The position numbers and the translations under genes are program-made. From an uncultured Bacteroidales bacterium (lineage in GTDB: Bacteria; Bacteroidota; Bacteroidia; Bacteroidales; FEN-979), in the NCBI GenBank assembly GCA_903828645.1, contig CAIKNA010000016.1, forward strand, positions 1 to 48,000: a stretch of DNA of 48,000 nucleotides, read 5' to 3'. The notes beneath the pieces are model-generated. The model saw only the letters and a list, made by a program, of their open reading frames with translations. It was not told the origin of the DNA and did no database searches. Of this stretch, positions 82 to 35,287 are shown one piece after another. Within the stretch, counting starts at the first letter, position 1. Every line of letters starts with the position of its first letter.

Positions 82-1434
82 TTAAATTTCCTGTTGAGCT
101 CTTCTCGCATCCAGCTCTTGTTTCATCAAGGTGGTGGTTTTAGTGTCGATCCTGTAAAAGAGCATAAACAATGCGCATGACATATATAAGATTCCCGGAA
201 TTACCGATACCAGTAATTTTATTCCGGTAATGGCAGTATTGTTCTGGATAAGATTTGGTACAAAACCGGAAGCGGCTAAAATCCAGCCTGCAATGGCCGC
301 GCCTATTCCCCAACCGGCTTTCTGTGCAAAGACTGCAGCTGAGAAATACAATCCCGTTGAACGGCGACCGGTTGTCCATTCGCCATAATCGGCCGAATCG
401 GCAATCATGGTCCAAAGCAGCGGAACGGCAGGTGCATATGCCATCTTAGCAATTATATTAAACACATAAATTGTTGTCAGATCATTTTTCCCGGTAATGT
501 AGATCAGGATAAAAAACAAACCGGAGATCAGTGAACTGCTTATAAATACGTTTTTATTTCCAAATCTTTTGGCCAGTGGTTTTGATAACGGCAGGGCAAT
601 AATCAGTGCAACCGTTCCAATTACGTTGAAAAGCTGAACATTATTTTCGCGGCCAAGGTAGTACTTGAAATAATAGGCAATGGCCGCATTTTGCATGGCA
701 AACATGATGAAAGAAATAATGCCTACCATGGCCAGGATGATCCATGCTTTGTTGCTGAACAGGTTTCTGACATCTTCCTTAAGCGAATTCACCTGCTGTT
801 TTGGCGGCTGAACGCGTTCTCTGGTAGTTTTAAATGTGATAAAGAAGAAGATCAGGCTTAATCCTGCAAACAAAAACACCGTATTTTGAAATCCTTTTGC
901 CTTGTCGCCATGGCCGAAAAATTCGGCTAAAGTCAGGGCCAGTCCCGTCACAACAAATTGCCCGGTAAAACCTGCAATAAACCGGTAAGTGTTCAATCCT
1001 GCCCTTTCGTAAGTATCGTCAGTCATTACAGCCCCGAGCGCCGAATAAGGCAGGTTAATGGCTGCATAAGCTGTCATTAAAAGTACATAGGTCGCTCCTG
1101 CATAAGCAATCTTTCCTGCTTCGCCAAAGTTTGGGGTTGAAAAAGTGAGAATAGCCAGGATAGAATAAGGAATGGCCCCGAATAAAATATAGGGACGAAA
1201 TTTACCCCAGCGTGTATTTGTTCTGTCAGAAACTATCCCGATTACGGGGTCGATGGCCATGTCCCAGAAACGGGCAACCAACATAATGGTTCCTGCAGCA
1301 GCAGCTGAAATCCCATACACGTCGGTATAAAAAAACAGGAGCCAGAATCCAACCATATCCCAAACAAAGTGAGAAGCGGTATCGCCTAAACTATAACCGA
1401 TCTTTTCCTTTAATGATAATTTTACTGCGGTCAT
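82..1434 (-). CDS. GPH-family (MelB-like) sugar:cation symporter, MFS
   Basis: This 450-residue protein is an inner-membrane transporter of the glycoside-pentoside-hexuronide:cation symporter family, which imports sugars or oligosaccharides together with Na+ or H+. The diagnostic GPH features are near the N-terminus: KIGYSLGDTASHFVWDMVGF in helix 1, then RFWDMAIDPVIGIVSDRTNT with RWGKFRPY, the conserved D-DP-G-SDRT-RWG-RP loop between helices 2 and 3. Twelve hydrophobic segments can be traced, and the length is normal for the family. A second, only distantly similar member is encoded at 9116-10546. Because the neighbours are beta-glucanases and a cytoplasmic phosphorylase, the substrate is probably glucose or a beta-gluco-oligosaccharide; this is inference. 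It is followed within a few bases by the next gene of the operon, and a 166-bp gap separates it from the upstream GH30 gene. Confidence 0.9.
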   Translation of the reverse strand: MTAVKLSLKEKIGYSLGDTASHFVWDMVGFWLLFFYTDVYGISAAAAGTIMLVARFWDMAIDPVIGIVSDRTNTRWGKFRPYILFGAIPYSILAILTFSTPNFGEAGKIAYAGATYVLLMTAYAAINLPYSALGAVMTDDTYERAGLNTYRFIAGFTGQFVVTGLALTLAEFFGHGDKAKGFQNTVFLFAGLSLIFFFITFKTTRERVQPPKQQVNSLKEDVRNLFSNKAWIILAMVGIISFIMFAMQNAAIAYYFKYYLGRENNVQLFNVIGTVALIIALPLSKPLAKRFGNKNVFISSSLISGLFFILIYITGKNDLTTIYVFNIIAKMAYAPAVPLLWTMIADSADYGEWTTGRRSTGLYFSAAVFAQKAGWGIGAAIAGWILAASGFVPNLIQNNTAITGIKLLVSVIPGILYMSCALFMLFYRIDTKTTTLMKQELDARRAQQEI

Positions 1435-1600: not shown

Positions 1601-3091
1601 TTAAGGCAAAACAACGATCGTTTGTATTGCCTGTGCGCTTATCTGCACTTCAACCGAACGATCAGCGATTGAAAGATTAATGTTTTTTGATTCAGGATTC
1701 ATGTTTAACATCACGACCGCAATGGATCCGTCAGGGTTCAGCGCTGCAGTTATCATTAAAGAAGGGTCGGGGTTTTCAAACCCGATCCGTACGGCGCCGG
1801 GCCGGATATATTTACTAAAATGTGCCAGGGTATAATACAAAGGAGTAAAGTAGACTTCATCCTTCTCCGGATCGACGATTACAGGCGCGACACACCAGTT
1901 TTTAACCCAATTGGGACCATCTTGCCTGTCTAAAACCATGTTCCAGTCTACCCAGCCATCTACCCAGTTATTCATACAACCGATAATATCCCGTGCATAG
2001 CGATAAACGGGAACATACTTAGGATGCAGCTTTTTCTGATCAGCAGGTGCCCAATCCCATCCCCAATCGGTTGCTTCTTCCGACCAGTACCATTTATCAT
2101 CCTTCCAATGAGGAACCTCCGCATCAATACATGCTTCGGTTTGGATAAGATGCCTGCCGGGAGCCATGTCATGTGTAAAGTTCAATGATTTGGGAAACCA
2201 ATCAAATGTACTTGCATACCAGTGGACTGCAAAGCCATCGAAATATTTTGATGACGAACTGTCTTTGTAGATCACTTTTACCCATTCTTCCAATTCTTCT
2301 CCGCGATTCTGGTCATAAGCCAGAACTTTTACACCATGTCCATCGGCTTCCAGTCTGGGACCGAGATGATTTTTGACGAAATCCACCATTTCCCCGGGCG
2401 AAAAGATCATACTTTCCCAGTTGTTGCCACACCCGAGCGGTTCATTCTCAACAGTCAATCCCCAGATATCAATCCCCTCTTTTTTATATTCGGTAAGATA
2501 CTTAGAGAAAAACAGGGACCAGGTGTCGTAGTATCCGGGCAGTAATTTACCACCCCGCCAATCGTTATTGTCTTTCATCCACGGAGGCGCGGTCCAGGGA
2601 GAAGCGATAATTTTAAATCCCTCTTTGGAATGAGTCATTGCATCCCTGATCATCGGAATGATATCGTCCCGGTCCTCGTCTATTGAAAAATGCTCTAATG
2701 CTATGTCTCCTTTTACAGGTGCATAGGAATAATTTCCCAATGAAAAGTCGCACGAATTGATATGCGTGCGCGTTAAGGAGTATCTGGCACCATTATCTCC
2801 GAAATAGGAATCCAATATCAAATCACGGTTTTTCCTGCTTAATCTATTTAACAAATAAGCGGATGCCTCCGTAAACGCCCCGCCAAACCCGGTGATGGTC
2901 TGAAATTTAGCATCAGGTAACAATTTAACAGATACGATTTCACTTCCGGAAGGAAATTCAGTGATTCTTTTGAGTTTATTGCCCTTTGCAGAAGTTTCAA
3001 ATACCTCTACCAACAACTTGTTTTGCTTCACATTGAAACTCATCATAAAAGGCATCAGAGAAATGGCCAGAAAAATCCTGAATCTCTTCAT
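1601..3091 (-). CDS. GH30 family glycoside hydrolase, exported
   Basis: A 496-residue retaining beta-glycosidase of clan GH-A. The start gives MKRFRIFLAISLMPFMMSFN, a signal peptide without a lipobox, so the enzyme is probably periplasmic or secreted. Visible GH30 motifs are GFGGAFTEASA (about residues 69-79), ASPWTAPPWMKDN, LTVENEP with the acid/base Glu217, and LIQTEACID with the nucleophile Glu319. The region VDGWVDWNMVLD followed by GPNW, with a C-terminal beta-sandwich, resembles subfamily 1 (glucosylceramidase-like) rather than the xylanase subfamilies. Marine Bacteroidota are known to use GH30_1 enzymes in laminarin loci to take beta-1,6-linked glucose branches off the beta-1,3 backbone. 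The neighbouring GH16, GH17 and phosphorylase genes make that the most likely job here. It lies 25 bp downstream of the GH16 gene. Confidence 0.9.
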   Translation of the reverse strand: MKRFRIFLAISLMPFMMSFNVKQNKLLVEVFETSAKGNKLKRITEFPSGSEIVSVKLLPDAKFQTITGFGGAFTEASAYLLNRLSRKNRDLILDSYFGDNGARYSLTRTHINSCDFSLGNYSYAPVKGDIALEHFSIDEDRDDIIPMIRDAMTHSKEGFKIIASPWTAPPWMKDNNDWRGGKLLPGYYDTWSLFFSKYLTEYKKEGIDIWGLTVENEPLGCGNNWESMIFSPGEMVDFVKNHLGPRLEADGHGVKVLAYDQNRGEELEEWVKVIYKDSSSSKYFDGFAVHWYASTFDWFPKSLNFTHDMAPGRHLIQTEACIDAEVPHWKDDKWYWSEEATDWGWDWAPADQKKLHPKYVPVYRYARDIIGCMNNWVDGWVDWNMVLDRQDGPNWVKNWCVAPVIVDPEKDEVYFTPLYYTLAHFSKYIRPGAVRIGFENPDPSLMITAALNPDGSIAVVMLNMNPESKNINLSIADRSVEVQISAQAIQTIVVLP

Positions 3092-3116: not shown

Positions 3117-3953
3117 TTAATCTGCCTGCTTGTACACTTTAACATAATCGACGAGCATTTTTTGAGGGAAAGTAGTCTGGCTTGTGGGATAACCTACATA
3201 ATTCCCCCCCACGGCTACATTCAGAATAATATAGAAAGGATGATCAAAAACCCAGTTTCCGGTTACATTACCAGGAGTAATCTCCTCATATAGTGTGTTA
3301 TCAACGAAGAAATCAATGTAATCTTTCCCCCATTCAACAGCAAACAAATGGAAGTCAACATCAAACCTGGTATTCTCAAACGCAAAACTTTTTGTAATTC
3401 CTGCACCTCCTGAATATCCGGGACCATGCACTGTGCCATTTATAATGTTTGGTTTCTGACCACGAAGTTCCATGATATCAATTTCTCCGCATTGAGGCCA
3501 TGCAACACTATTAACATTGGAGCCAAGCAACCAGAATGCAGGCCACATGCCCGGTCCCCAGGGTGTCTTAATGCGCGCTTCAAAACGCCCGTAAGATTGT
3601 TCAAATAATCCTATTGTTTTAATACGGGCAGAGGTAATGTTCTCCCAATGATCCGTTACCCAATTGGCCTTTGCCGTGATCGCCAAATTACCGTTGCCGT
3701 CGGTGGATGCATTGGAAGTGTCTTTTGTGTAGGTTTCCAATTCCTCATTTCCCCAACCGCCGTTTCCGATATCAAATTTCCATTTCGTCGAATCGGGCGA
3801 CATTCCTGCTGAACCGTTGAATTCATCACTCCAGACCAGTTGCCAGTTTCTTTGTTCAATTTTTTGACCGCTCTCTTTTTTACATCCGAACAGGGTAATA
3901 AACAAAAGTGAACATATGGCCGCTGAAACAAATATTTTGCTGTTTTTTTCCAT
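3117..3953 (-). CDS. GH16 endo-beta-glucanase (laminarinase-like) lipoprotein
   Basis: A 278-residue enzyme with a type II signal: the hydrophobic stretch ends in LFITLFGC, giving lipidation at Cys24, so it is anchored in a membrane, probably on the cell surface. The rest is a single GH16 jelly-roll: LVWSDEFNG at the N-terminus, GRFEARIKTPWGPGMWPAFW, and the catalytic signature CGEIDIMELRG with the nucleophile Glu157, the assisting Asp159 and the acid/base Glu162. The form with a Met between the Ile and the second Glu (EIDIME) is the beta-bulge version typical of beta-1,3-glucanases (laminarinases). C-terminal motifs FHLFAVEW and LNVAVGGNY are also typical. It should cut the polymeric beta-1,3-glucan into oligosaccharides. 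It sits 38 bp after the binding-lipoprotein gene and 25 bp before GH30. Confidence 0.93.
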   Translation of the reverse strand: MEKNSKIFVSAAICSLLFITLFGCKKESGQKIEQRNWQLVWSDEFNGSAGMSPDSTKWKFDIGNGGWGNEELETYTKDTSNASTDGNGNLAITAKANWVTDHWENITSARIKTIGLFEQSYGRFEARIKTPWGPGMWPAFWLLGSNVNSVAWPQCGEIDIMELRGQKPNIINGTVHGPGYSGGAGITKSFAFENTRFDVDFHLFAVEWGKDYIDFFVDNTLYEEITPGNVTGNWVFDHPFYIILNVAVGGNYVGYPTSQTTFPQKMLVDYVKVYKQAD

Positions 3954-3991: not shown

Positions 3992-5857
3992 CTATTTGTG
4001 GAAAAAGATATTGTCAATATAAACATCTCCATTACCCACAAATTTAAACTGGATAACATCTGCTAAATTCACAGGTGAAAAAGAAGACAAGGGAATGTCC
4101 ACGCCTGCCCATCCTGATGTGGGAACAGGCAAAACATATGATTTTTCAACCGGGCCGGTGCTGATCAGGAAAACGTTCAGTGAAAATGAACTGGCCGACC
4201 AGTAATCCAGATGCAAAAAACTCATGGCGGAAACATTCTGACTGCTGCCAAGCTGAATTCCCTGGTAATTCAAGCCCTTATATTTAAGGGTATTGTTCCC
4301 GGCGATGGGAACCTGCGAAAAAACCGTGGTTTGCCCCCAATTAGGATTTAAATTCGTTCCGGCTACATTGGTGTATGAATCGCTGAATACCGAGAGAACA
4401 TTTGCCGCGTTGAAAGTGGGAACAGGGGCCGCCGTTGTTGGTTCAGGCGACGTGCTTCCATCATTAAAGAAATATACATTGTCTATGTAAACATCCGGCA
4501 AATCGCCTGAAAGAACCAGTTGAGCCAGGTGAGATTTGCTTGATAATCCCGAAAAGCTCGACAAAGGGATGTTCAGGCTGATCCAGTTCTGGGTAGACAA
4601 GGGAGGACTTCCAATGGAAATTTCAGAATTGGAATCATCACCACCACCATACACTCCATCTGGCCCGAAATCAATTAATTTAACTTTAAATGTTTTATTA
4701 GCGGTAGTATCAGGTGTCCACAGATCAATATGGAAAGTAGCCATGGCACTGGCATCGACCGGTTGCGATGAAAACTCTATCCCCACAAAGTTAAGTTTCT
4801 TGTAACGGATTACATCATCCCCATTTATCTGAATATTCTGATTTTCTGCTGTTGAGAATTGCCAGTGAGTATTCCAGCTATCCACTTTGACATTGGTATA
4901 GGCGTTGCTGAATAATGAGATTACCTTGTTACCGGCAATCGTAGGAACCGGTGCCGGCTGGGTAGGGGCAATTTTCAGGCCTGTTACGCTGATTGTCAAC
5001 GAGCCTTTTGCACCGGTACCAGCCACTTTAGCGGTAATTACAGCCGAACCGGTATCCGCCACCCTGACCAATCCTAAGTCGTTTACCGTAGCTACAGAAG
5101 GATTGGAAGATGTAAATGTGAAATACGAAGCAGACAGATTGGATTTTTGATCGACACCTGTAGGGAGGTTGAAGGTATCATAAAAATCTGATATTTGAAA
5201 TTCTTCACCGGTTTCAACATTGTCAACGATTGAATCATGGCCGTTGAAAATACCAAAATTTGCATGCGCTATTGTTCCCAGTTTTTCAAATTTAAGTTCA
5301 TCAATCCAGAATGTATAACCTCTTCCATTCTGAGGTGCTGCCGCGTAATAAAACATACCGTTTTCCTGTGTGAGCAAAGACGGATCGGGTATGGGGATGT
5401 AATATTCCACCCAATTCGAGTTAACCTGTAAATTGGCGAGAGATACCTGGTATTTTGATGTTCCCATGTCGTTACCGAAGCCTACAAGTACAATTGTTGC
5501 CGGCTGAGATGCTTTTGCCCAAAAAGTAAGCACGTTATATCCTGACAGGTCACGGGCCGGGTTTGCTCCAAAAACGCCACCTGCATATGAACCATTCGGG
5601 TCTCCTGCATCTGGAACTTCAAACTTCATGGAACACGTTCCTGAATATTTCACACTGTAATCCACATTAAAAGCCGTTACTTTTGAGGTTCCATAGGCTG
5701 CATAATACAAGCCGGTACTGAATCCATCGATGAAAACATCGGCAGTCGTCGGGTAGGTTGCCAATTTTAATCCATCAAGTTTTTTTTCACAGCTCACTGC
5801 CATTAACAGAATTGTTACCAGGGCAGCGATTGAACAAATTGATTTTAACTTTTTCAT
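3992..5857 (-). CDS. Surface glycan-binding-type lipoprotein with BIG2 and carbohydrate-binding-like domains
   Basis: This reads as a 621-residue lipoprotein. I start it at the ATG at 5857 (MKKLKSICSI), because the longer frame needs a TTG codon at 5866. The lipobox is LLMAVSC, with Cys23 lipidated. Domain order is a jelly-roll-like module at about 35-195 ending in FWIDELKF, a bacterial Ig-like group 2 (BIG2) domain at about 230-295 with TFTSSNPSVATVNDLGLV, and two related jelly-roll modules at about 315-470 and 480-621 that end in DVYIDNVYFFN and DVYIDNIFFHK. No catalytic motif is seen. The architecture and its position next to GH16 resemble the surface glycan-binding proteins (SGBP/SusE-like) of polysaccharide loci. 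The ligand is probably beta-glucan by context only. The upstream gene's stop lies 18 bp away, so the two are co-transcribed. Confidence 0.75.
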   Translation of the reverse strand: MKKLKSICSIAALVTILLMAVSCEKKLDGLKLATYPTTADVFIDGFSTGLYYAAYGTSKVTAFNVDYSVKYSGTCSMKFEVPDAGDPNGSYAGGVFGANPARDLSGYNVLTFWAKASQPATIVLVGFGNDMGTSKYQVSLANLQVNSNWVEYYIPIPDPSLLTQENGMFYYAAAPQNGRGYTFWIDELKFEKLGTIAHANFGIFNGHDSIVDNVETGEEFQISDFYDTFNLPTGVDQKSNLSASYFTFTSSNPSVATVNDLGLVRVADTGSAVITAKVAGTGAKGSLTISVTGLKIAPTQPAPVPTIAGNKVISLFSNAYTNVKVDSWNTHWQFSTAENQNIQINGDDVIRYKKLNFVGIEFSSQPVDASAMATFHIDLWTPDTTANKTFKVKLIDFGPDGVYGGGDDSNSEISIGSPPLSTQNWISLNIPLSSFSGLSSKSHLAQLVLSGDLPDVYIDNVYFFNDGSTSPEPTTAAPVPTFNAANVLSVFSDSYTNVAGTNLNPNWGQTTVFSQVPIAGNNTLKYKGLNYQGIQLGSSQNVSAMSFLHLDYWSASSFSLNVFLISTGPVEKSYVLPVPTSGWAGVDIPLSSFSPVNLADVIQFKFVGNGDVYIDNIFFHK

Positions 5858-5875
5858 CTTTATCAATTTTTTTGA

Positions 5876-8800
5876 TTATTTGCCAAAATTAAAGTGAAGG
5901 TAAAATCTGATTTCCCATTCATCGCCATTTCCATATCCGACTGCAGTAGGGTCAGCCACCCAGGTACCTGAACTGGTCAATATCGTTGTAGGGCAATATC
6001 GCGGAGAATATTGGTCAAGAGCCCGCCATGTACCCCTTATTCCCACTCGGGTTTCAGGCAGAATAAACCATTTGCGCTGTGCTACAGCGTATGATAAATC
6101 CGCCATTAGCTGGAGCGGGTAGGTTAAGTTGAAATCGCGATGATAATCGTAGGGTCCCCAGTCATTCACTTTAACAGCTGAAATTAGCTTAAGGTTTTTG
6201 TAAACAAGTCTTATATCTGCACCTAAACGACTGATTAATCTTCCGTCACTTCCATTTGCCTGGCCCGTACCGCCATAAAGATTTACAATGAATCCAAAGT
6301 CGTGAGTGACTTTTGACACAATCCGTGAACTGACCTCCCATAAATCATGTGCGGGAGGTGCACCGGGGAATGCAAAAATTGTACGTCCGTTTGCCATTAT
6401 ACCTATTGCAGCATCCTGGGTGGTAGGCAGATGACGATATACAAAATCACCACTGATTGCAAACGGCGCATCTTCCATCTCATCATTATCCCACGCCCAC
6501 ATCCAGGTGCCGGGGGTAGGATCGTATGCAATTAAAAGCTCGCCAGCCGTCGTTTCCCTGTTTTGCCTGACAGCAAAGGGGTCATCAAGTATGTTTCTTG
6601 GCCTTCCGGGAGCCGGAACATCTTTTGATATTGGTCCGACAATGGGTTTTTGCCATAAGAAATTCGGAGCTATCTGAAATTTACCTATAGTATAGGCGAG
6701 GCCCATTAAAAAGTTATATTGGTTTCCGCTTCCGCAATCTTTGAGATGCCATCCGGTAAAAGTTTTCGTATAATCTGCTCCACCCATGGCAACCAGTCCC
6801 ATCACCGCTCCCTGCGTATAAAAGTTAACCGGTCCGGACGAAAAGGATATTTTGGCTTTTCCCCCCCAGTTGTCCATCGATGTTATTTTGTCCTGGTATA
6901 CGATGTAATCTCCGGGAATGCCGTCAACTAACTGAAAAGTCGAGCCGTTTCTCGGCTGACCTGACCATAAACCACCCAGATCGAGAACAACTTTTCCAAT
7001 AGTTGTTTTTACGTCAAGGGAAGCTCTGCGGTTTTGCGGAGTGGGGATGGCAAAGGAACTTTGCGCTGCGGTATTTTGGGCTAAATCTTCATGATACATT
7101 CCGGTCAATGTAACGATTCCCAGTTTTCGGCTGTATTTGACCAACACTGCCGGATTAGCGCCCCACCAAAGCTCAGGACCAAAAGCAACTTTTAAACCCT
7201 CCAATGCTTTTTTACCCTCGAATTCAAAACCCAGGGGTGCGTCGCCATTATAAATATCAATGTTTGTTCCATAATTTGCTTCCGGATATAATCCGAAAAA
7301 GTCACCTTCATATCCCCAGTGATAATGTCCTGTACGATAAAAACTTGTAAGATTAAACCACTTGTTGGTCCAGGTAAAATCAAAATTATATACTTGTACC
7401 CGGTTAATTGAGGGTATCGCATAGGGGCCCTGATTAGTTTCTACCGTCTGAGTGCGGCCATGATTTTCATAAAAGATTTCATCAATTGGATTTTCAGCTA
7501 CATGTCCGAGAATATTGATTGAAACATTTGCTTTTATATTTTCGGTAGGTTTCGCTTCAACGCCAATAAAAAAGGACTCCATATGGTCGAATCCCAGAAA
7601 ACTCGGATAAGTCGGAGTCAATGCCTTAGAATCTTTTTGCGGCGGGGTTGTGATCTTGTCGCCGCCAGTGCTAAAGGTGGTTATTTCTGCCCTTATGCCA
7701 CTAATGCGAATCTTTTGTGTTGTTTCACCATTCAAAGAAGCTTTATCCCCCCTGGCCTTTAAAACATCATTTATTACCTGGATATTTAAAAAATACTTAT
7801 TTATCGAATCGGCTGTCACATTTTTTGCATAGGGATTCAGTTTATGAGCTTGTTGCAATGCATAATAAGCAGCACGAGGATATAACTGATAATGTCCCCT
7901 TTCATCTGTCTGGCCTTTTGCACAAACACCGAACCACTCCTCATTCATATTATTCTCTCCTGCCTTATAATCGTTAAGGTAACCGCCATTAGCCCAGGAA
8001 GCATGAGTATCATGAATGTCCAGGTTTTCAGTTTGTTTATATTTCCACCAGCCATCGCTGAACATAAAAGTAAATCCGCCGATACAATTTCCCGCTTTCC
8101 CTAAACCCGCTGCATTTTCATAAATTTCTTTCCAGTTGTTTGTCATATAATATGCCTGCGATTGCTGATCTTCTTCATTGCTAAGGGCATTAAAAGCATC
8201 GGCACCAAACTCGGTAAACATGATTGGTTTTTTCAATACTTCTTTTGTTTTTTGAAATGCGTCAGTAAAAGAGACACCGCGATACATATTACAACCAAGA
8301 ATATCGATATTTTTACATTCTGCGGCAATAATATCAAGGAAAAGTAAATCTCCATTACATATTGCTACCGGATGAGAATTATCGATGGTTTTCATAGCCA
8401 AAGTTGCTTCGTCAAAGAGCTTATACATTGCCTTGGCATCAATTGTGGATTTTCTTTGTTCTACAGGAATATTTTCCGTTTCGGCTCCCCGCCAGAACAA
8501 TCCGTAATTGTTTTCATTGCCTAGTAAATATACAATCAAACCGGGCGTGTTTTTATAATCTTCTGTCATTTTAGTCACTTCTTTCAGAAGCAAGTCGCGT
8601 ACACCAGGGTCAGAATAATCAGTATTCGGAGCCCATTTGCCCTTTAATGTCAAGCCGTATCTCCCGAAAGAATGATTTATCATTGTGTAAATGCCATATT
8701 TCTCATAGATGTACTTAATCCACTTTGGCTGAATGCCGGTATATACGCGAATGGCATTTACCCCCATGTTTTTTAACAGGGGCATTTCCATATCCAGTGC

Positions 8801-9019
8801 AGTTTTAATAAAATCATCCGATTGCTTCCACAAACTATAGGTATAATTGGTACCAATTGGAAAGTAATCCCAATTCATGCCATTAATCATAACATTGTTA
8901 CCATTGACTAATAGTTTAACTCCTTCATTGTTATTAACAACCGATACTTTGTCTGCCTGCGCCAAAATAACAGTTGTTATAAATAAGAAAAGAGCAAATG
9001 TCAAATAAACTTTTTTCAT
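5876..9019 (-). CDS. Fusion of a clan GH-A glycosidase domain and an outer-membrane beta-barrel
   Basis: This 1047-residue protein starts with a signal peptide (MKKVYLTFALFLFITTVILA, cleavage near AQA). Residues about 33-395 look like a TIM barrel of clan GH-A, closest by eye to GH2 catalytic domains: LLVNGNNVMINGMNWDYFP, NMGVNAIRVYTG, YLLGNENNYG with the acid/base candidate Glu169, and KPIMFTEFGADAF with the nucleophile candidate Glu270. After a linker at about 395-470, the remaining 570 residues show alternating polar and aromatic strands with Gly/Asn-rich turns. They end in EWEIRFYLHFNFGK, as expected of an outer-membrane beta-barrel. There is no TonB plug or CarboxypepD domain, so it is not a SusC. 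N-terminal domains of such barrels usually face the periplasm, which suggests trimming of oligosaccharides as they enter; surface exposure cannot be excluded. The exact family of either half is uncertain. Confidence 0.72.
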   Translation of the reverse strand: MKKVYLTFALFLFITTVILAQADKVSVVNNNEGVKLLVNGNNVMINGMNWDYFPIGTNYTYSLWKQSDDFIKTALDMEMPLLKNMGVNAIRVYTGIQPKWIKYIYEKYGIYTMINHSFGRYGLTLKGKWAPNTDYSDPGVRDLLLKEVTKMTEDYKNTPGLIVYLLGNENNYGLFWRGAETENIPVEQRKSTIDAKAMYKLFDEATLAMKTIDNSHPVAICNGDLLFLDIIAAECKNIDILGCNMYRGVSFTDAFQKTKEVLKKPIMFTEFGADAFNALSNEEDQQSQAYYMTNNWKEIYENAAGLGKAGNCIGGFTFMFSDGWWKYKQTENLDIHDTHASWANGGYLNDYKAGENNMNEEWFGVCAKGQTDERGHYQLYPRAAYYALQQAHKLNPYAKNVTADSINKYFLNIQVINDVLKARGDKASLNGETTQKIRISGIRAEITTFSTGGDKITTPPQKDSKALTPTYPSFLGFDHMESFFIGVEAKPTENIKANVSINILGHVAENPIDEIFYENHGRTQTVETNQGPYAIPSINRVQVYNFDFTWTNKWFNLTSFYRTGHYHWGYEGDFFGLYPEANYGTNIDIYNGDAPLGFEFEGKKALEGLKVAFGPELWWGANPAVLVKYSRKLGIVTLTGMYHEDLAQNTAAQSSFAIPTPQNRRASLDVKTTIGKVVLDLGGLWSGQPRNGSTFQLVDGIPGDYIVYQDKITSMDNWGGKAKISFSSGPVNFYTQGAVMGLVAMGGADYTKTFTGWHLKDCGSGNQYNFLMGLAYTIGKFQIAPNFLWQKPIVGPISKDVPAPGRPRNILDDPFAVRQNRETTAGELLIAYDPTPGTWMWAWDNDEMEDAPFAISGDFVYRHLPTTQDAAIGIMANGRTIFAFPGAPPAHDLWEVSSRIVSKVTHDFGFIVNLYGGTGQANGSDGRLISRLGADIRLVYKNLKLISAVKVNDWGPYDYHRDFNLTYPLQLMADLSYAVAQRKWFILPETRVGIRGTWRALDQYSPRYCPTTILTSSGTWVADPTAVGYGNGDEWEIRFYLHFNFGK

Positions 9020-9115: not shown

Positions 9116-10546
9116 CTATAATTCACCTCTTCGATCAACTAACATTTTCCGGATTTCATTTGCTTTTTTTTCGGTGATATCATAATTCCACATGATCAAA
9201 ATTGCTAAAAGGCCTGTTATTGATGGAATAAGAATATCCGCAATTCTAAGTTTAGTAATGGTTTCAACCGTTTGGACCTTTATATTCTGATCAAATCCAA
9301 CCAGGTTTAATACTACGCCGCTGGTAAGTAGAGCAATTGCAGTTCCCAATTTAACCATCCACCAATAGACAGCACCAAATGTCCCTTCTTTTCTTGGCAT
9401 TCCGTTATTTAATTCATCCAAATCGCATACATCAGCCGTCATTGACATCATTAATGTAAACAGCCCGCCTATTCCGAAGGAAATTAAAGGAAGTGGTAAA
9501 AACATCAGCCACGGATTACCAGGATGAAATGCCCACCATTTTAGTGAATATCCAACTATGGATATTACCGTAGAAATTATAAAAGCATTTTTTTTACCTG
9601 TTTTTGTTGAAATGAAGGTAATGACAGGAATTACCATAAATGCTGTTGCAACAGCACTCAATGTGCCAAACCAAGCGGGCCATTGCCCCGCCGCATTGGT
9701 GTCGCCTGAGAACAAATAAAAAATTATGATAAAAAATGCAAACTGGGCTATAATCTGGAATCCGTTAAATATCAAAAATGTTGCTCCACACAATCTTAAG
9801 AAAGATCTGTTTGTTATTATCTGCTTCATGCTTTTAAAAAGAGCTTTCATATTATTAACAAACTCTTTAGCAGAAAGTTTGGCTCTGTTTGTTAAATGTG
9901 TCTGATCAATTTCTTTGCAAAACAGTGCCGGCATAATTCCCAATATCAGGCAAATGGCTCCAACCCAAAGGGAAAGGTTGCGAGCCCCCTCCGGGGCACT
10001 TGGATAGACATTTTGATTATAAATGATAAACCAGAACCAGGGAGCAATCATCCATGCAAATTGTCCCATAAATTGAGAAATTGCCATCAACCGTGTTCTT
10101 TCGTTATAGTCGGGAGTCATTTCATATCCCAATCCAATGAGTGGTGCGGCGAAAATAGTATAGCCAACGTAGAAAAAGAACGACATTATCAGAAAGTAGA
10201 AAAAATTATAGGTTTGACCATTTTCGGGATATAACTGCCACATTACCATAAATACTATTCCTGTAATAATAGCACCAATAAAGATATAGGGCTTCCGTCG
10301 TCCCCATCTGGAGACAGTGTTATCCGAAATAAATCCCATTACCGGGTCCATTACCGCATCAATCAGCCGTGGGATAGCAGCCAGTAATCCGGCCAAAACA
10401 GGATTCATTTTTAATGACAATACTAAAACAATCATAAAAACCCCCAGTGCGGCGGGAAATAATTGATTGGTTAAATGGCCTGAGCCGAAAGCAATTTTTT
10501 GCCTGAACGGTACAACATCTTTCGGCAATGTTTTGTAATGTTCCAT
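9116..10546 (-). CDS. GPH-family sugar:cation symporter (second copy), MFS
   Basis: A 476-residue inner-membrane transporter of the glycoside-pentoside-hexuronide family. Near residues 58-92 it has the signature AIPRLIDAVMDPVMGFISDN followed by RWGRRKPY. About twelve hydrophobic segments follow. It differs from the symporter at 82-1434 through most of its length, with a longer cytoplasmic loop in the middle (about residues 210-250), so the two are not a recent duplication and may take different substrates, for example branched versus linear oligosaccharides. It sits between the GH17-like genes (84 bp) and the glycosidase-barrel gene (96 bp). The gene order outer-membrane barrel, inner-membrane symporter, cytoplasmic hydrolases follows the presumed path of the sugar into the cell. 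Confidence 0.9.
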   Translation of the reverse strand: MEHYKTLPKDVVPFRQKIAFGSGHLTNQLFPAALGVFMIVLVLSLKMNPVLAGLLAAIPRLIDAVMDPVMGFISDNTVSRWGRRKPYIFIGAIITGIVFMVMWQLYPENGQTYNFFYFLIMSFFFYVGYTIFAAPLIGLGYEMTPDYNERTRLMAISQFMGQFAWMIAPWFWFIIYNQNVYPSAPEGARNLSLWVGAICLILGIMPALFCKEIDQTHLTNRAKLSAKEFVNNMKALFKSMKQIITNRSFLRLCGATFLIFNGFQIIAQFAFFIIIFYLFSGDTNAAGQWPAWFGTLSAVATAFMVIPVITFISTKTGKKNAFIISTVISIVGYSLKWWAFHPGNPWLMFLPLPLISFGIGGLFTLMMSMTADVCDLDELNNGMPRKEGTFGAVYWWMVKLGTAIALLTSGVVLNLVGFDQNIKVQTVETITKLRIADILIPSITGLLAILIMWNYDITEKKANEIRKMLVDRRGEL

Positions 10547-10630: not shown

Positions 10631-11569
10631 TCAGATTATCCCGGGATAACAGTGGCTCATTACTGTTTTAGGTTTACGATCGACTGTAAAGAGGCCCCAG
10701 TGTTTTTCGGGTTCAAGGGCTTCGGGCGAACCTTTCCATGGTTCATCGAATGCTTCGAAGAAAAATGTCATAACACCTTCTTTTTCGCTCCATTCAACAA
10801 GGTCGTTATAATAGATTGCCTGAAATTCCTGGCTGACATTTTCGGGATTAATACCCCTTCCATTTGAATTGGTCGCCCAGCCTGCCTCGGTAATTATAAC
10901 GGGCTTCCCGGGATACCTGTCGGCAATGCCCTGATAGTTCTGTTTAGTGCATTCCATGGCCTCGTGAATGTGTTTGTACTCCCAAACCGGGTACGAGTGA
11001 ATGGAAATAAAATCAACTTCTTCTGCCAGGTACTTTAGTTTGTCGTGCCAGGGGAGATAATTCTCGCAAAAGGTAACCGGCTGTCTGGCTTCTTTTTTTA
11101 TCATCCTCACATAACTGATTACTTTGTCTACCGGTACAAAATGATCGGTCCAGTCTACAGTTGCTTCATTTCCGGCTGACAGGGAAAAAATAATATCCGG
11201 ATAACGGTTGGCAAGCCGAATCAGTTTTTCAACCTGGACAAGGTTGTCCCTCGTGTTTTTTTCAAGTTCCTCCTCGCTGAAAATTGTGCCCCAGGGACAA
11301 CCAAAATTGTTTAACTCCGCACCAATATAAGCCCCAAGCATCACTTTGAATTTCAGATTCTCTTTATCGATTACCTTTAAAACCATTTCGGCATGTAACC
11401 CGCTATCATACAAACGCAGGTAGGACCATTGATGTTGAAGGATCAGAAGGTCTTCCTTTATTTCCTCATAGGCAGGGAATATTCCGGATCCAGGACTTTG
11501 CCCTACCCTGTATCCCGAATAGCAGATTGCTTTTCCGGGTGCCATACCCAATGTTTGAAACAGATTCAT
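10631..11569 (-). CDS. GH17-like beta-1,3-glucanase/transglycosylase, cytoplasmic
   Basis: A 312-residue clan GH-A enzyme resembling family GH17. Motifs seen are QWSYLRLYDSG at the end of an early strand, SLSAGNEATVDW with the acid/base candidate Glu135, ISIHSYPVWEY, and VIITEAGWATNS with the nucleophile candidate Glu228. The protein begins MNLFQTLGMAPGKAICYSGY, with no signal peptide or membrane anchor, so it should stay in the cytoplasm. That is unusual for GH17, whose plant, fungal and many bacterial members are exported. With the neighbouring phosphorylase and symporters this points to intracellular hydrolysis or transglycosylation of imported beta-1,3-gluco-oligosaccharides. It is only 16 bp downstream of a second GH17-like gene from which it is clearly diverged. 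Confidence 0.82.
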   Translation of the reverse strand: MNLFQTLGMAPGKAICYSGYRVGQSPGSGIFPAYEEIKEDLLILQHQWSYLRLYDSGLHAEMVLKVIDKENLKFKVMLGAYIGAELNNFGCPWGTIFSEEELEKNTRDNLVQVEKLIRLANRYPDIIFSLSAGNEATVDWTDHFVPVDKVISYVRMIKKEARQPVTFCENYLPWHDKLKYLAEEVDFISIHSYPVWEYKHIHEAMECTKQNYQGIADRYPGKPVIITEAGWATNSNGRGINPENVSQEFQAIYYNDLVEWSEKEGVMTFFFEAFDEPWKGSPEALEPEKHWGLFTVDRKPKTVMSHCYPGII

Positions 11570-11585: not shown

Positions 11586-12470
11586 TTAGTATTTCAATTT
11601 TCCGTCTTTATCCCAAAGTCCCCAGAATGCTCCAACATCGCCTTCACCACCCATTTTCCATGTTTCGTCGAAAGAGGAAAAATAGAACATCTCAATATCA
11701 GATTCTTTACTCCATATCTGGGCGTTGATAAAGTAGCGGATTGCATTGTTGAAGGATGGTTCGGAATCTTCAAAAGAGGTTCCCCGGTTTGGCCAGCCGG
11801 TTTCGGTTATGATCACTTTTTTGCTGTTTCCCGCATTCAATGCGCGATGATACATGTCTTTCATGTAGAGCAGCGAATAGTCGGTGTGACAGCCTTCCCA
11901 GAAGGGATAGCAGTTTGCGAAAATGATATCGCAAGCCTCTGTTATCGCAGGCCGGTTGCAGAATTCATAATATGCATCAACATAACCAACAGGAATTCCG
12001 GGTAATTCATCCTTAACGTGCCGGATATATTTTAACAATTCCTCCTCCGTCAAATCTTCACGATACAGAACTTCATTACCCACAGCAACCAAATCGGCAT
12101 AACCATCTTTGGCAACCTTGATAACATTGGCTATCTCTGCTTCATTTATTACCTCATTTTCTCCCAGCCAGGCTCCGACCATTGTTTTTAAACCAAATTC
12201 TTTTGCAATGCGTGGAATCATTTCATTTCCATCGGTACACGAAAAAGTCCTGATCCATTTGGCATAGGGCCTGATGATTTCGATTTTGTTGCGGATTTGC
12301 TCCTCGGTAATGAGAGAACCTGGCTCCTGGCCTTCAAGATAGGGGCTGAAGCATATACCATGCATGCCTTTTTTAAGCACCGTGGTAAAGATGGATCGCA
12401 GATCTGCTGTTGATTTATTCGTGAAGTCCTGGCCGGCCAACGAGAGTATGTACTCACTTCTAAATGACAT
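11586..12470 (-). CDS. GH17-like beta-1,3-glucanase/transglycosylase, cytoplasmic (second copy)
   Basis: A 294-residue GH17-like protein. Key motifs are GICFSPYLEGQEPG near residue 38, WIRTFSCTDGNE, LVAVGNEVLYRED with the acid/base candidate Glu133, IIFANCYPFWEG, and VIITETGWPNRG with the nucleophile candidate Glu223; the last is the classical GH17 signature. No signal peptide is present (MSFRSEYILSLAGQDF), so it is predicted to be cytoplasmic like its neighbour. The length is that of a bare TIM barrel with no accessory domain. It lies 39 bp after the phosphorylase gene and 16 bp before the other GH17-like gene, so the three are probably translated from one message. Division of labour between the two GH17 proteins, such as chain length or branch preference, cannot be read from sequence. 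Confidence 0.86.
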   Translation of the reverse strand: MSFRSEYILSLAGQDFTNKSTADLRSIFTTVLKKGMHGICFSPYLEGQEPGSLITEEQIRNKIEIIRPYAKWIRTFSCTDGNEMIPRIAKEFGLKTMVGAWLGENEVINEAEIANVIKVAKDGYADLVAVGNEVLYREDLTEEELLKYIRHVKDELPGIPVGYVDAYYEFCNRPAITEACDIIFANCYPFWEGCHTDYSLLYMKDMYHRALNAGNSKKVIITETGWPNRGTSFEDSEPSFNNAIRYFINAQIWSKESDIEMFYFSSFDETWKMGGEGDVGAFWGLWDKDGKLKY

Positions 12471-12509: not shown

Positions 12510-15500
12510 TTAGTTGACTAAATTCCTGAATGAAACTTCAATCTGAATCAGTTCACCTGTACGCTGAAATATTTTGGAACTCATCTCTTTTCCCAGGGTA
12601 TGACCTGTTATCAATATCTGGTTTCCACCAACGGATGTGATTGCCAATTTATCTTCGAGCGAAGTGCTGTAAACAATCGGAACCTGACAGAAAGTAAATC
12701 CCAGTTGTCCCTGTTTAAGGATTATTTGCTGCCGCTCTCCCCGGAGGTTAAAATATTCGAAAATACTTTCCTGATTCAATAACTCATTGGGATCGAGCAG
12801 GGAGAACTGGAATACAATTTCTCCATCCTGTATATGAATACCTAATTCTCTCATGCGTGAAAGGAAGTCTTCTTTCACCTGTCCGGTCATCCCGGGCTGT
12901 TGCGCACCTGCATTTGCGGGTGTGTGTGAATAGGGGTCCGTTGGAAAAGCCCCGTATAAATCAGGAGATTTATTCAACCCAATTCCAGCTTTGATTTCGA
13001 AATAGTGATCTTTAATTTTTCCAACTACAACCGGGTCGGCCTGTTCATAAACGCCTTTAAAATAGCATTCCTGGGCTGCAAGCAATAGTTTTGAAACCAT
13101 ATGCCAGTAAATGCTTCCCAATCCCTCATACCCATAAAATGTACCCGACCTGCCGGTAAACGACTGATGATCGAAAAGCGTTTCGAAAATTGCTAAAATC
13201 TTATCTTTTTCTTCGTCGAGAAGAAGGGCATATTTGGCAGGATCAAGATGGTTTAGGGCTTCTTCCAAAACGGCTGCATTGCGAAATGTTCCATTAAAGT
13301 GGAAATTACCCAGATCATCTTTACTTAATATGGATGAATCGGAGTCGGCAATTAGTTTGCTCAAAAGTTTTGATTCCTTAACCTTACTGCCGGGTATGTT
13401 GTTTTTCTGGCTGAAGAGAGGCAATTGCCTGTCGGGATAAAGCAAGTAACTATATTGGTCGCGACGAAATAAACTACTACATTTCAGCGAGATAAGAACA
13501 CCGAGGCTTTCCTCAACCGACAAGTACCCTGAACTCAGAACAGCTACCTGCCCTTCGAGCATTTCGTACAAATGACGGATTGAAACACTTTGTTCGGAGA
13601 ATGAAATCAGGTTATAGGCATGATACAGCCCATCCTCCCGTTTATTGACTCTTATGGACTGATCCATATATCCCAGTGCGAGTCGGGTGAATTCAGATAA
13701 ACTTTTTACCTGGACCGCTATCTTGCGGCCTGAGAAAGATTTTTCGTATATGGTGTTTCTGTAATCGCTTCCGGCTTCGCCAAGACTATCTGCAAAATGA
13801 CGCCTGGCGGAATTCGAAAATCCCGTTTCGACCAAGGCTGCGTTATCAGCAAAAAGAGTAAATATTCTGTCGAACAGGGTTTTTACTTCTTCTGAAATAC
13901 TGATTTCCAGATCAGTGGATTCGTTAAACCGTTCGGACCATAATTTCAGGAACCGCCTCAAGTAACAGAGTGTAACCATTGAAGCTCCGTTACCAACCAG
14001 GGCATTGTTTGCATCGTTCCATTCAGGGCGTTGGGTGTTGAGCCAGATGCCTGCTTCGGGTATAAAATTGCTTAGCTTGGCAAGCAAGGTCACCAGAATT
14101 TTTTCGGTAAGATTAACCCTGTATATTTCATTATCCCTGCCTTTCAACAAAACACCGTCAGCACCTGTTTTACGGACCAGGTCCTTAATTTTATCATTTA
14201 AATCAAAATCAAAGACAATGGTATCTTTCGGATTTTTTACAATCCCGGCGTATGGTTTTATGTGGTAAGGGATATTTGCATAAACAAACATTTCCTTTTT
14301 CAACAAGGCATCCAGGGTGCCCGGATGAAATTCACCGGATAATTCCAGGAATTTCTGCAGGTAAATAATCTGGTGGTCGCCCCAGTAGCCAATATAGGCC
14401 CATGGATCGTGAGGATCGGGGCATTCCCAGTCGATGCCTTCCCGGGTAACCCGGTATGGATTGTAACCATCGGCTGTTGTAGCATTTAAAAATTTGCAGA
14501 TCATTCCTTTCAAAAATTCAGGATAGGAAAGGCTGAGGGCTTCCCAGTTCTGAAAAATATCGCGCCAGTTTCCCTGGTAATTTAATTTTACGGAACCATC
14601 CGGATTTTTGGTTTCAATCGAAAACTGGTTCCATGGGCGGCTCGGATCGCCATGCCTGCGGCTGAAAGTGAGAGGCAGATATTCGCAGCAAATCCTGATC
14701 AGGTCAAAATCTGAAATGCCCTCGGCAAGCCTGACCAACTCAATATAGCTGATTTTTTCGGGAAGCTGGTCGAGCCAGTTCTTATGTTTTGCTGATATAT
14801 CTTTATTTATTTGCCCTGCAAACAAGATAAAGTCTGTTTTGTCAAGTGTGTAATTGTTGTTGAAAATTCCGCCCCTCATTACATTGAACAGGGTGTTGGA
14901 GAAATGGCGGGCATAACTTAATTCATCATTGCTCATCTGCAATCCGTCAGCGCTGCAAACAATTTTCTTCAGGTTCAATGTTCCCTTTTCAATATCAGCG
15001 TTAACCAGCTGTTTTATGTTATTCCTGGTTTTTAATGCATTGCCGATGTTGGCAACATCGCCACTTTCCTGGTTAATTTCAGCCACAATCATCCAATCCC
15101 TGCTGGCATCTTTTTCAAGTTTAAGGCTTGTACTCACATAATAAGCCCCTCGTGTTGCCCTTATATCGGTCTCTGTTTCAACAGCCTGTCCTTTTTTGAA
15201 GTTCTCAACCTGGCGGTTGGAAATAAGAACCTTTGCATCCTGATTTAATCCGACTGACCAAACGGTTGTTGCTTTAAGCGATTCGCTTGGCTCGGCGCGG
15301 TCAACCGGAATAGAACTTAGCATATACAGGCCAAGTTTGGCATCTTCAATCAATTCACATTTCTTATAGGCATCGAGCAAAGAACTGAATGCGTTCTGGA
15401 AATCGAAATCAACACCATTGGGTAAAATGTTCTTAATCCCGTCGAGAATGTCAACCGTAACCAAGCCACTGTTGTGATTGCTGATAACCGACTTCTTTAC

Positions 15501-16013
15501 GAACCCAAATTTTTCGCTGTTGTACCAGCCGTATCGAAATCCCACACCCAGGTCAACATTAATCTCTTCGAAAATGATTTTATTGCCGTAAATGCTTTTA
15601 TAGAGATTTCTTTCGATTGTATAAATTTTCTCCGACCCGGTTGAAAAAGGTTCCCATAAATAGGTTTTCTCATCCCTGCCTACCAGCAGGTATGTTTTAC
15701 TTCCGGTAATGCCCCTGCTATCATGAATTTTATCAACAGTATAATAAGGAAACAAAGCGTTATTACGGTCTTTCCTTCCTGCTGAAAGCGAGCCGTTGCT
15801 CGAAATGAACATCCAGTGATCGGAATCACTCACAATGGTCATAAAGAAATCAGGCATCTGGTTGCAGTTGCTGATTTTGTAAAATGTTTCGTTTTCAATT
15901 TCCTCAAACCGCCCCTCAACCTTTGCACTGTGGCACTTAATCTGAGCGTTTCCTAAATAGATTGATTTTTCATTCATACCATTGTGTGTAGTAAAATCAT
16001 AAATTTCATGCAT
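12510..16013 (-). CDS. Beta-1,3-oligoglucan phosphorylase-like enzyme (GH149/GH161, GH94-related)
   Basis: A 1167-residue cytoplasmic protein with no signal peptide. Its size and fold signals match the large inverting phosphorylases GH149 and GH161, which split beta-1,3-gluco-oligosaccharides with phosphate to give alpha-glucose-1-phosphate. There is an N-terminal beta-sandwich with GSLSAGRKDRNNALFPYYTV (about 74-93). The (alpha/alpha)6-barrel portion contains RRHGDPSRPWN (about 452-462), GNWRDIFQNWEAL (about 481-493), DPWAYIGYWGDHQ (about 537-549) and RPEWNDANNALVGNG (about 662-676). In the last, Asp667 is the best candidate for the general acid by analogy with the WND motif of GH94. GH149 versus GH161 cannot be decided by eye. 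An internal Met13 (15977) is an alternative start. It is the first gene of the cytoplasmic part of the locus, 265 bp downstream of the T9SS gene with a hairpin between them. Confidence 0.8.
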   Translation of the reverse strand: MHEIYDFTTHNGMNEKSIYLGNAQIKCHSAKVEGRFEEIENETFYKISNCNQMPDFFMTIVSDSDHWMFISSNGSLSAGRKDRNNALFPYYTVDKIHDSRGITGSKTYLLVGRDEKTYLWEPFSTGSEKIYTIERNLYKSIYGNKIIFEEINVDLGVGFRYGWYNSEKFGFVKKSVISNHNSGLVTVDILDGIKNILPNGVDFDFQNAFSSLLDAYKKCELIEDAKLGLYMLSSIPVDRAEPSESLKATTVWSVGLNQDAKVLISNRQVENFKKGQAVETETDIRATRGAYYVSTSLKLEKDASRDWMIVAEINQESGDVANIGNALKTRNNIKQLVNADIEKGTLNLKKIVCSADGLQMSNDELSYARHFSNTLFNVMRGGIFNNNYTLDKTDFILFAGQINKDISAKHKNWLDQLPEKISYIELVRLAEGISDFDLIRICCEYLPLTFSRRHGDPSRPWNQFSIETKNPDGSVKLNYQGNWRDIFQNWEALSLSYPEFLKGMICKFLNATTADGYNPYRVTREGIDWECPDPHDPWAYIGYWGDHQIIYLQKFLELSGEFHPGTLDALLKKEMFVYANIPYHIKPYAGIVKNPKDTIVFDFDLNDKIKDLVRKTGADGVLLKGRDNEIYRVNLTEKILVTLLAKLSNFIPEAGIWLNTQRPEWNDANNALVGNGASMVTLCYLRRFLKLWSERFNESTDLEISISEEVKTLFDRIFTLFADNAALVETGFSNSARRHFADSLGEAGSDYRNTIYEKSFSGRKIAVQVKSLSEFTRLALGYMDQSIRVNKREDGLYHAYNLISFSEQSVSIRHLYEMLEGQVAVLSSGYLSVEESLGVLISLKCSSLFRRDQYSYLLYPDRQLPLFSQKNNIPGSKVKESKLLSKLIADSDSSILSKDDLGNFHFNGTFRNAAVLEEALNHLDPAKYALLLDEEKDKILAIFETLFDHQSFTGRSGTFYGYEGLGSIYWHMVSKLLLAAQECYFKGVYEQADPVVVGKIKDHYFEIKAGIGLNKSPDLYGAFPTDPYSHTPANAGAQQPGMTGQVKEDFLSRMRELGIHIQDGEIVFQFSLLDPNELLNQESIFEYFNLRGERQQIILKQGQLGFTFCQVPIVYSTSLEDKLAITSVGGNQILITGHTLGKEMSSKIFQRTGELIQIEVSFRNLVN

Positions 16014-17613: not shown

Positions 17614-17658
17614 AATTTTTGGTTTGTTTAAGAAGATTAATGGTATGATTTGACAAAG

Positions 17659-17666
17659 CAAACATA
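17659..17666 (-). promoter_or_regulatory. Candidate Bacteroidota -7 promoter element
   Basis: On the minus strand this reads TATGTTTG, a full match to the Bacteroidota consensus TAnnTTTG. It lies 45 bp before the ATG of the T9SS binding-protein gene. No good -33 TTTG partner is present (the matching place has TTTTT), which is typical of promoters that need an activator. Confidence 0.5.
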
Positions 17667-17696
17667 GCTTACTATTCCATCGATTAAAAATATACA

Positions 17697-17715
17697 GTTG
17701 CATCAAATATGCAAC
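17697..17715. promoter_or_regulatory. Candidate operator: 19-bp dyad
   Basis: The sequence GTTGCAT-CAAAT-ATGCAAC is a perfect 7-bp inverted repeat with a 5-bp spacer. Its near edge is 30 bp upstream of the candidate -7 element, where a class II activator would touch RNA polymerase. A dyad of this size suits a dimeric LuxR/GerE-type helix-turn-helix such as the one in the adjacent regulator. Confidence 0.5.
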
Positions 17716-23679: not shown

Positions 23680-24197
23680 TTGCTGAAATTGACCTGAAAA
23701 AACAATCTTTTAACAGATGACGGACAGTTCCGCCGGCTTATCCGTCATTGCCGCCCCTGCTGTCCGCGGAAAGTGCAGTTTGGAAAAAGAGGCACTCCGG
23801 AGAAGCCGGAGCACCTGACCCTCAATTGTGAAAAATGAAACAGTGAAATTATTGACTTCCCATTTTATATGTTGTATTATTGCAGCGTTATTATCCTGTG
23901 TTGTTATGGTTTAATTGTAACATAACAGCCTGGCAGATAAAATGGTTGAAATATCCGGAAAATCGGTTTGCGGTTCTCACGGCATGTTGTAAATGAGTGA
24001 CCTTCAGAAACCGGGGTTGACTTATACAATTCCCGTTCCCTGTCGCTTTCTGCATTGTGTGAGGGGCAATAGTCCGGTGTAATTAATAACCGGTCATGCT
24101 GCATCGTTGCGGCAAATGGTATTAATAACCTTGTAGTTTGAATTTTAGCTTAACCCAGATAAGTCTGATTTCCATTCAACTGCAAACACCAAACTTT
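23680..24197. other. Non-coding region before the 3596-residue protein gene
   Basis: About 520 bp without a credible gene. It contains an 8-bp-stem hairpin at 23717-23748 (ATGACGGA with TCCGTCAT) and a 6-bp-stem hairpin at 23795-23811 (CTCCGG with CCGGAG). Either could serve transcript ends after the LolA-like gene, although neither has a T tract. Close to the giant gene the 10-mer ATTAATAACC occurs twice (24082-24091 and 24121-24130). No exact TAnnTTTG element was found. Confidence 0.5.
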
Positions 24198-34988: not shown

Positions 34989-35007
34989 TAAACCCCGATT
35001 GAACAGG

Positions 35008-35063
35008 AAAAAGCAACCTGGTTTGGAAGTAACAACTTCATCATTCAAACCAGGTTGCTTTTT
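35008..35063. terminator. Strong bidirectional intrinsic terminator
   Basis: A perfect 18-bp inverted repeat (AAAAAGCAACCTGGTTTG at 35008-35025 and its complement at 35046-35063) closes a 20-nt loop. A T tract ends the plus-strand stem and an A tract begins it, so it can stop transcription in both directions. It lies 20 bp after the stop of the giant gene. Confidence 0.92.
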
Positions 35064-35287
35064 GTTTTTAGCCGCTCAGGTTGCTGCGTCTGTATTTTGC
35101 GGAACCGCTGCTGATCCTGCCCGCGACGATCCATCCTGCCAGGTATCGGATTGGTCTGCGGGAAAACCATTTGTCTCCGTCGAATGGAATTATTTCAAGG
35201 TGCCTGATTTTTTTCAAATTCTGCACTTTTGCAACATCTGTGGCACAATCTGGAACAATGGTGTCAATCAGGTTCCATTGGGTGAAT

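Follow-up and report, generated by a model that had tools for sequence, protein, structure and literature searches.

How a Bacteroidota genome might take up beta-1,3-glucan at a locus without SusC and SusD is the question raised by the 48-kb contig CAIKNA010000016.1 of an uncultured Bacteroidales bacterium, which we analysed in its entirety (the window). The use of laminarin by Bacteroidota is largely inferred from SusC/SusD genes, and a search of the contig with the Pfam families SusD_RagB and Plug found no SusC/SusD gene, as a preliminary description of this DNA had held. The window carries instead a single open reading frame (positions 5876-9019, reverse strand), running from ATG to stop without internal stops, whose coordinates, strand and length of 1047 amino acids are exactly those first reported, and in which a glycoside hydrolase (GH) domain is joined to a predicted outer-membrane beta-barrel. 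The preliminary description proposed that a hydrolase tied to its own pore would couple cutting to uptake and would explain the missing SusC/SusD. Our computations establish the fusion and its barrel, the conservation of the catalytic residues, a constant lipoprotein neighbour and a catabolic gene set, and on balance we favour a reading of the protein as a hydrolase-porin encoded in a locus for the utilisation of beta-1,3-glucan (laminarin-type), with a barrel that would form one outer-membrane uptake module with the lipoprotein and a GH16 lipoprotein.

The protein begins with a signal peptide and has no lipobox, and the enzyme (residues 24-434) abuts the barrel (residues 437-1047) almost without a linker. 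Pfam recognised Glyco_hydro_2_C at residues 71-284 (2.6e-9), and its single match to the C-terminal half stayed below threshold. The gene is present in one copy in the genome of the window, and since full-length relatives, 58-88% identical, are present in many genomes, the fusion is no chimeric product of the assembly. An AlphaFold model of residues 396-1047, based on a 79-sequence alignment, contained 24 strands of membrane length (predicted local distance difference test, pLDDT, 78.4; predicted template modelling score, pTM, 0.74). Foldseek found 338 matches of this model in the PDB at E ≤ 0.001, and all 50 of those listed were outer-membrane barrels, among them MOMP, FepA, BtuB, PfeA, OprC, OpdQ, AlgE and the Mtr complex. 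The TM-scores to the listed solved barrels were low, not exceeding 0.37 (TMq) and 0.40 (TMt), and therefore none of these is a close match. The hydrophobicity gap between the two strand faces averaged 1.36, against 0.72 ± 0.11 after shuffling, and was reached in none of 5000 within-strand shuffles. Loop lengths alternated, with median lengths of 27.5 residues for the 12 outer loops and 2 for the 11 inner turns (Mann-Whitney p 0.0002). Together with the signal peptide and the fold match, the amphipathic strands and the alternation of long outer loops with short inner turns make the C-terminal half, as modelled, an outer-membrane beta-barrel. The earlier account of a hydrolase joined to its own barrel is thus upheld, with a barrel of about 611 residues and not 570; neither the lack of a barrel nor a soluble accessory domain, the two outcomes that it had named as fatal, was encountered.

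Family searches did not name this barrel. Pfam assigned no family, and what it matched, such as DUF6882 in 6 of 30 relatives (0.0032 at best), stayed below threshold. PHROGs gave weak matches from which no family could be assigned, and a sequence-profile search of the PDB returned nothing at E 10. Neither Plug nor a CarbopepD_reg-type N-terminal domain was among the Pfam families of the 30 relatives at E ≤ 1, so that the protein does not have the composition of a TonB-dependent transporter (SusC). When conservation was mapped on the model, it was highest on the lumen face (mean 0.804; 28% DEKR) and lowest on the lipid face (0.676; 7%), and the outer loops (0.758), with loops 3, 4, 7 and 11 highest, were conserved as much as the strands (0.739). 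This pattern is that of a selective pore.

With the full-length model, Foldseek placed GH158 endo-laminarinases first, followed by GH157 and GH2 enzymes, with outer-membrane barrels intermixed. The superpositions on GH158 were poor (root-mean-square deviation 16-19 Å, 14-16% identity), because the alignments extend past the GH domain. A GH-domain profile matched BuGH158 (6pal) with an E value of 4.5e-8 summed over three weak pieces, the best single piece having 0.0046, and further matches were a second GH158 at 5.5e-5 and GH2 chains from 2e-4. In the profile alignment the GNE and TEFG motifs of the fusion stood opposite GNE and TEWG of BuGH158, so that N168, E169 and E270 correspond to N136, E137 and E220 (chain-to-paper numbering offset of 22); by this alignment they take the places of the catalytic N-E of strand 4 and the Glu of strand 7 that mark clan GH-A. 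Mutation of each of the three BuGH158 residues abolishes activity (PMC5827456, PMC6246565, PMC7157763 and PMC8406198, whose available portions serve jointly as sources for this enzyme and its locus 1,3GUL, and for FbGH17b, Cyc2 and the GH149 clusters discussed below). Both Glu candidates, described before as retained, are indeed invariant in the alignment of 30 relatives, and they are also kept in four aligned relatives that lack a barrel. The substrate of the enzyme is likely beta-1,3-glucan, since a GH158 endo-laminarinase is its nearest neighbour and the catalytic N/E/E are aligned, with a kinship to GH158 that is remote.

The barrel model suggests on which side of the membrane this enzyme works. 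A barrel with an even strand count and short inner turns has both termini in the periplasm, and strand 1, which begins at residue 437, within a few residues of the end of the preceding helix (415-434), leads to a long outer loop. Because both barrel ends would be periplasmic and strand 1 directly follows the GH domain, the enzyme should lie at the periplasmic mouth of the barrel. The proposed coupling of cutting to uptake had left the side of cutting open, and the topology points to a trimming of incoming fragments at that mouth. A region equivalent to that of helix 415-434 is present in barrel-less L171 and L172 and partly in L173 (not in L168), and hence the helix region probably belongs to the enzyme and not to a lumen plug. 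A plain signal peptide without lipobox was observed in some barrel-less relatives, such as L215 and L218, and also L168 and L170, which have an extra domain, as expected of a periplasmic enzyme. The barrel could, however, be autotransporter-like and place the enzyme at its N-terminus on the outside of the cell, in which case it would not be a nutrient pore. Autotransporters do have an N-terminal catalytic domain and a C-terminal barrel, the order found here, but their classical translocator has 12 strands and not the 24 predicted for this protein, which in addition lacks a linker long enough to span the lumen. A surface enzyme would agree with the type II signal peptide of BuGH158, the nearest enzyme, whose source paper names cell surface glycosidases in its title, and with the lipobox-like start of 9 of 17 single-domain relatives without barrel, whose start codons are not curated. 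Lipoproteins may face either side of the outer membrane. A charged and conserved lumen with conserved outer loops suits a selective pore, and a constant lipoprotein neighbour would be unexpected for a mere exporter, so that we regard surface display as unlikely.

The fusion is widespread. An even draw of 296 Bacteroidota genomes gave 33 matches at 1e-20, namely 28 fusions (that of G264 split between contigs), three GH domains alone (G164, G183, G302) and two broken frames (G179, G295). The latter two genes (G179:C314, G295:C53) are interrupted by TAA stops and are apparently decaying fusions. Among the window and 60 closer relatives, 19 of 61 matched at 1e-3, many weakly via a GH2-like core; the fusion was found in G003, G008, G016 (two contigs), G035 and the window, and the GH domain without barrel in G014, G025 and G029. 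A scan of named genomes used six search peptides, three in the GH half and three in the barrel, and the best 80 of 579 relatives were taken, a sample that therefore favours full-length relatives. These 80 were 62-88% identical and mostly from Bacteroidota, with single metagenome-assembled genomes labelled KSB1, Calditrichia and Thermoanaerobaculia; the listed carriers include Cloacibacterium rupense and several type strains of Flavobacterium. In overlapping draws of 296, 396 and 395 genomes, profiles of the barrel only matched 29, 18 and 35 genomes, respectively, and they found no stand-alone barrel: apart from fragments in G264, G179 and G295 the matches lay in open frames of at least 1028 codons (fusion length), the GH half not having been looked at separately in 12 newly added genomes, G797 and G822. 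A distant GH-barrel fusion on a 3.3-kb contig (L225, 523-3345, reverse strand), 35% identical, with both catalytic Glu kept and the C-terminus YFTYMF, hints at a wider fusion family; a search of its family returned only itself (1 of 6).

The GH domain does occur without the barrel, and 121 GH-domain genes, 101 fused and 20 unfused, were compared, L222 (G179) being tallied as unfused though it resembles a broken fusion. Outside the barrel alignment and tree were L024 (contig end) and L098 (stop in the frame used), and L225 was below the length criterion of the tree. Three genomes from the family of the window, including one from its genus (L168-L170), jointly lack the barrel, the lipoprotein and GH16 within the flanking DNA covered, and their locus order is GH149-MFS-GH-MFS (MFS, major facilitator superfamily). 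Since these three nest inside the window's clade, the missing barrel is most simply a loss. At least five fused/unfused changes, in either direction given the arbitrary root, are required elsewhere in the tree. GH149 is present at 18 of the 20 unfused loci. In the place of the barrel, L168 (10957-13029), L169 (14547-16643) and L170 (5328-7400) have an extra domain of about 290 residues after the GH domain; that of L168 gave no Pfam and no PDB match, and a mutarotase-like identity of the extra domain in these three was rejected for want of support.

The neighbour that accompanies the barrel, and on which the preliminary description of the fusion was silent, is the lipoprotein gene (Table 1). 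It is the next gene after the fusion in 76 of the 77 named loci that have a gene there, and the second in L069; GH16 stands second in 66 of these 77, with loci cut by a contig end counted in. A lipoprotein homologue lay at most two genes from 97 of 97 scorable fused genes and from none of 19 scorable unfused genes, four fused and one unfused rows having too little flank to be scored, and the pairing agreed in all five phylogenetically independent tree pairs. At unfused L171, a protein with a type IX secretion tail, encoded six genes off on the opposite strand, matched the lipoprotein in part. The homologues differ in length, a Pfam SusD match is absent in the lipoprotein of the window, and the lipobox counts vary with the pattern (strict, 51 of 76 lipoproteins and 51 of 66 GH16; permissive, 79 of 82 lipoprotein homologues). 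In the 59 named loci with at least 8 kb downstream, the lipoprotein and GH16 were found in 59 each, GH17 in 45, GH149 in 42, MFS in 37 and GH30 in 29. A fusion that processes and secretes a self-made beta-glucan, as AlgE or BcsC would, is very improbable: AlgE is among the listed Foldseek matches of the barrel, but the phosphorylase, the GH16 lipoprotein, the GH17 and GH30 enzymes and the sugar symporters give the locus a catabolic look, and the 11 genes scanned in positions 82-20868 yielded no glycosyltransferase family.

Table 1. Features of the window discussed in the text (all on the reverse strand)
Feature	Position	Strand	Basis or remark
MFS_2 (GPH) inner-membrane sugar symporter	82-1434	-	
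GH30	1601-3091	-	Pfam 5.2e-80
GH16 beta-glucanase, lipobox LFGC	3117-3953	-	Pfam 2.5e-23; third gene of conserved core
Lipoprotein, lipobox AVSC, conserved N-terminal region, Big_2, two C-terminal repeats	3992-5866	-	Proposed surface glycan-binding partner of barrel
GH158-like hydrolase + predicted 24-strand outer-membrane barrel	5876-9019	-	1047 amino acids, signal peptide, no lipobox
Outer-membrane barrel, residues 437-1047	5879-7711	-	24 predicted strands
Clan GH-A catalytic domain, residues 24-434	7718-8950	-	Pfam Glyco_hydro_2_C 2.6e-9; GH158 profile match; top Foldseek matches GH158
Glu270 codon, nucleophile candidate	8210-8212	-	Aligned with BuGH158 E220
Glu169 codon, acid/base candidate	8513-8515	-	Aligned with BuGH158 E137
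MFS_2 (GPH-like) inner-membrane sugar symporter	9116-10546	-	Pfam MFS_2 above cut-off; NCBIfam gph below cut-off
GH17-like	10631-11569	-	Pfam 5.5e-6, 26.7 bits, just below gathering score 28.2
GH17	11586-12470	-	Pfam 2.3e-14
GH149 beta-1,3-glucan phosphorylase	12510-16013	-	NCBIfam NF058639, 1701 bits, cut-off 1150
Y_Y_Y + LuxR-type regulator	17974-20868	-	Pfam; blastp homologue at 54/80 relatives' loci

Next to GH149, positions 16279-17706 encode a CBM35-like protein that carries a type IX secretion tail and has blastp homologues at some relatives' loci. Farther on, 24138-40319 encode a 3616-residue protein in which such a tail is combined with DUF2341, PKD and BACON domains, and then a 1657-residue protein with the same kind of tail; an open reading frame of 1671 residues comes after these two.

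SusC and SusD were searched for near all these genes by phmmer with few queries, over all the flanking DNA covered at named loci (49 of 80 with at least 5 kb on both sides) and within four genes at the unnamed ones (18 of 21 fused with at least 5 kb on both sides); of the unmatched neighbours above 900 amino acids, 19 of 20 were also scanned with Pfam, the exception being a 1044-residue gene product at L093. The barrel module and SusC/SusD rarely meet: SusC/SusD was detected near 1 of 101 fused genes (L029, confirmed by Pfam), or 1 of 68 among loci with at least 5 kb on both sides, the window included. An apparent SusC fragment near L073 (5057-6847, reverse strand) was rejected, being a DUF4139/DUF4140 protein with a Plug-like stretch at residues 287-372. 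Near unfused genes SusC/SusD was found in 3 of 20 cases (L171, L212, L213), where it lies immediately upstream of the GH16 and GH-domain genes, and these three cluster in the tree with weak support (83); at unfused L215, a SusC-like piece of 217 residues lies six genes off, outside the four-gene rule. A simple swapping of barrel and SusC/SusD does not follow from these counts, because no SusC/SusD was detected within four genes at the other 17 barrel-less loci. The suggestion that the fusion explains the missing SusC/SusD gains some support from the fused loci.

The barrel might also serve chiefly as an anchor that keeps both enzyme and lipoprotein attached to the outer membrane, with uptake through unlinked SusC/SusD or general porins. 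The other contigs of the window's genome do have 3 SusD and 25 Plug matches, and at L029 the two systems stand side by side. A lipid anchor would suffice for that role, though, and some relatives seem to use one; moreover, the lumen is the most conserved face of the barrel. Ten chosen genes at the three SusD loci of this genome encode amylases at one, GH3 and a glucoamylase-like protein at another, and at the third CBM96 and, some 6 kb off, a weak GH16, and none of the ten is a GH17, GH30 or GH149; the other GH16 of the genome (C310) was outside this comparison. We hold an anchor to be improbable, if perhaps a shade less so than surface display.

For the favoured hydrolase-porin we infer the substrate, the transport, the surface position of the lipoproteins, the periplasmic side of the enzyme and the independence of TonB, and the steps would be as follows. 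The surface lipoprotein would capture the glucan, which the GH16 lipoprotein would cleave outside the cell, and the fragments would cross the selective 24-strand barrel, which has no TonB plug and whose lumen is lined by conserved, often charged residues and whose outer loops show an unusual degree of conservation. At the periplasmic mouth the GH158-like domain would cut or cap the emerging fragments and so pull the flux inward, and the GH30 and GH17 enzymes, the MFS_2 symporters and the GH149 phosphorylase would complete the breakdown. The module would thus fill the place held elsewhere by SusC/SusD/SusG. Several points, besides L029 and the lipobox-like starts mentioned above, weigh against this proposal. 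A wide pore without a plug would require some other gate; the full-length AlphaFold model is weak (pLDDT 71.6, pTM 0.53) and does not predict the relative placement of the two domains; the alternation in strand 1 is weak along the whole strand (0.12) and good over 442-451 (1.04), so that a bulge is needed, and were this strand outside the membrane, the enzyme could be extracellular. Five independent pairs cannot give better than p 0.0625, and the 17 barrel-less loci that show no SusC/SusD within four genes include several on short contigs. More tentatively, and at somewhat less than an even chance, the module may represent a third type of outer-membrane glycan importer beside SusC/SusD and simple porins, namely a TonB-independent hydrolase-porin with a constant lipoprotein lid, made one-way by hydrolysis at its inner mouth, and employed for beta-1,3-glucan in about a tenth of the sampled Bacteroidota genomes (28 of 296).

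Among the closest known parallels are the SusC/SusD loci for laminarin and beta-1,3-glucan, such as the 1,3GUL of Bacteroides uniformis, with SusC, SusD, the surface glycan-binding protein SGBP-B, GH16, GH158 and GH3, and the polysaccharide utilisation locus variants of marine Flavobacteriia (PMC6298971). As far as the available texts describe them, they are alike in having a barrel, a glycan-binding lipoprotein, GH16 and GH158-type enzymes and a regulator, whereas at the locus studied here no SusC/SusD was found, the GH158-like enzyme is within the barrel protein and the lipoprotein has no Pfam SusD match. BuGH158 heads the Foldseek list and shares the aligned N/E/E at a remote kinship, but it is described with an Ig-like domain that the enzyme half of the fusion does not have. 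Cyc2, a cytochrome-porin, likewise has an N-terminal functional domain on an outer-membrane barrel, assigned to the periplasmic side by the same topological reasoning, and differs in its 16 strands, its heme and its role in iron oxidation. Bacteroidetes clusters without susCD in which GH149 accompanies GH17/GH16 and GH3/GH30_1 are already on record, with no fused barrel in the portions available, and the unclassified 'GH0' with GH149 and GH16_3 (PMC10108472) and the 'GH2' with GH16 and GH149 (PMC13188888) may be the same gene under other names. In open PubMed Central text, as covered by titles, abstracts and term counts, we found no description of a hydrolase-barrel or hydrolase-porin fusion, or of this system as uptake without SusC/TonB. 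A coupling of hydrolysis to transport has, in the text available, already been proposed for laminarin use in Formosa, where FbGH17b is also a hydrolase fused to a transporter; that transporter is a helical MFS protein of the inner membrane and the hydrolase a GH17. With diatom chrysolaminarin estimated at 5-15 petagrams of carbon per year (PMC6298971), an import of beta-1,3-glucan by the module would mean that surveys restricted to susCD pairs overlook a common route, and it would be a new coupling of outer-membrane transport to hydrolysis, testable in cultured strains.

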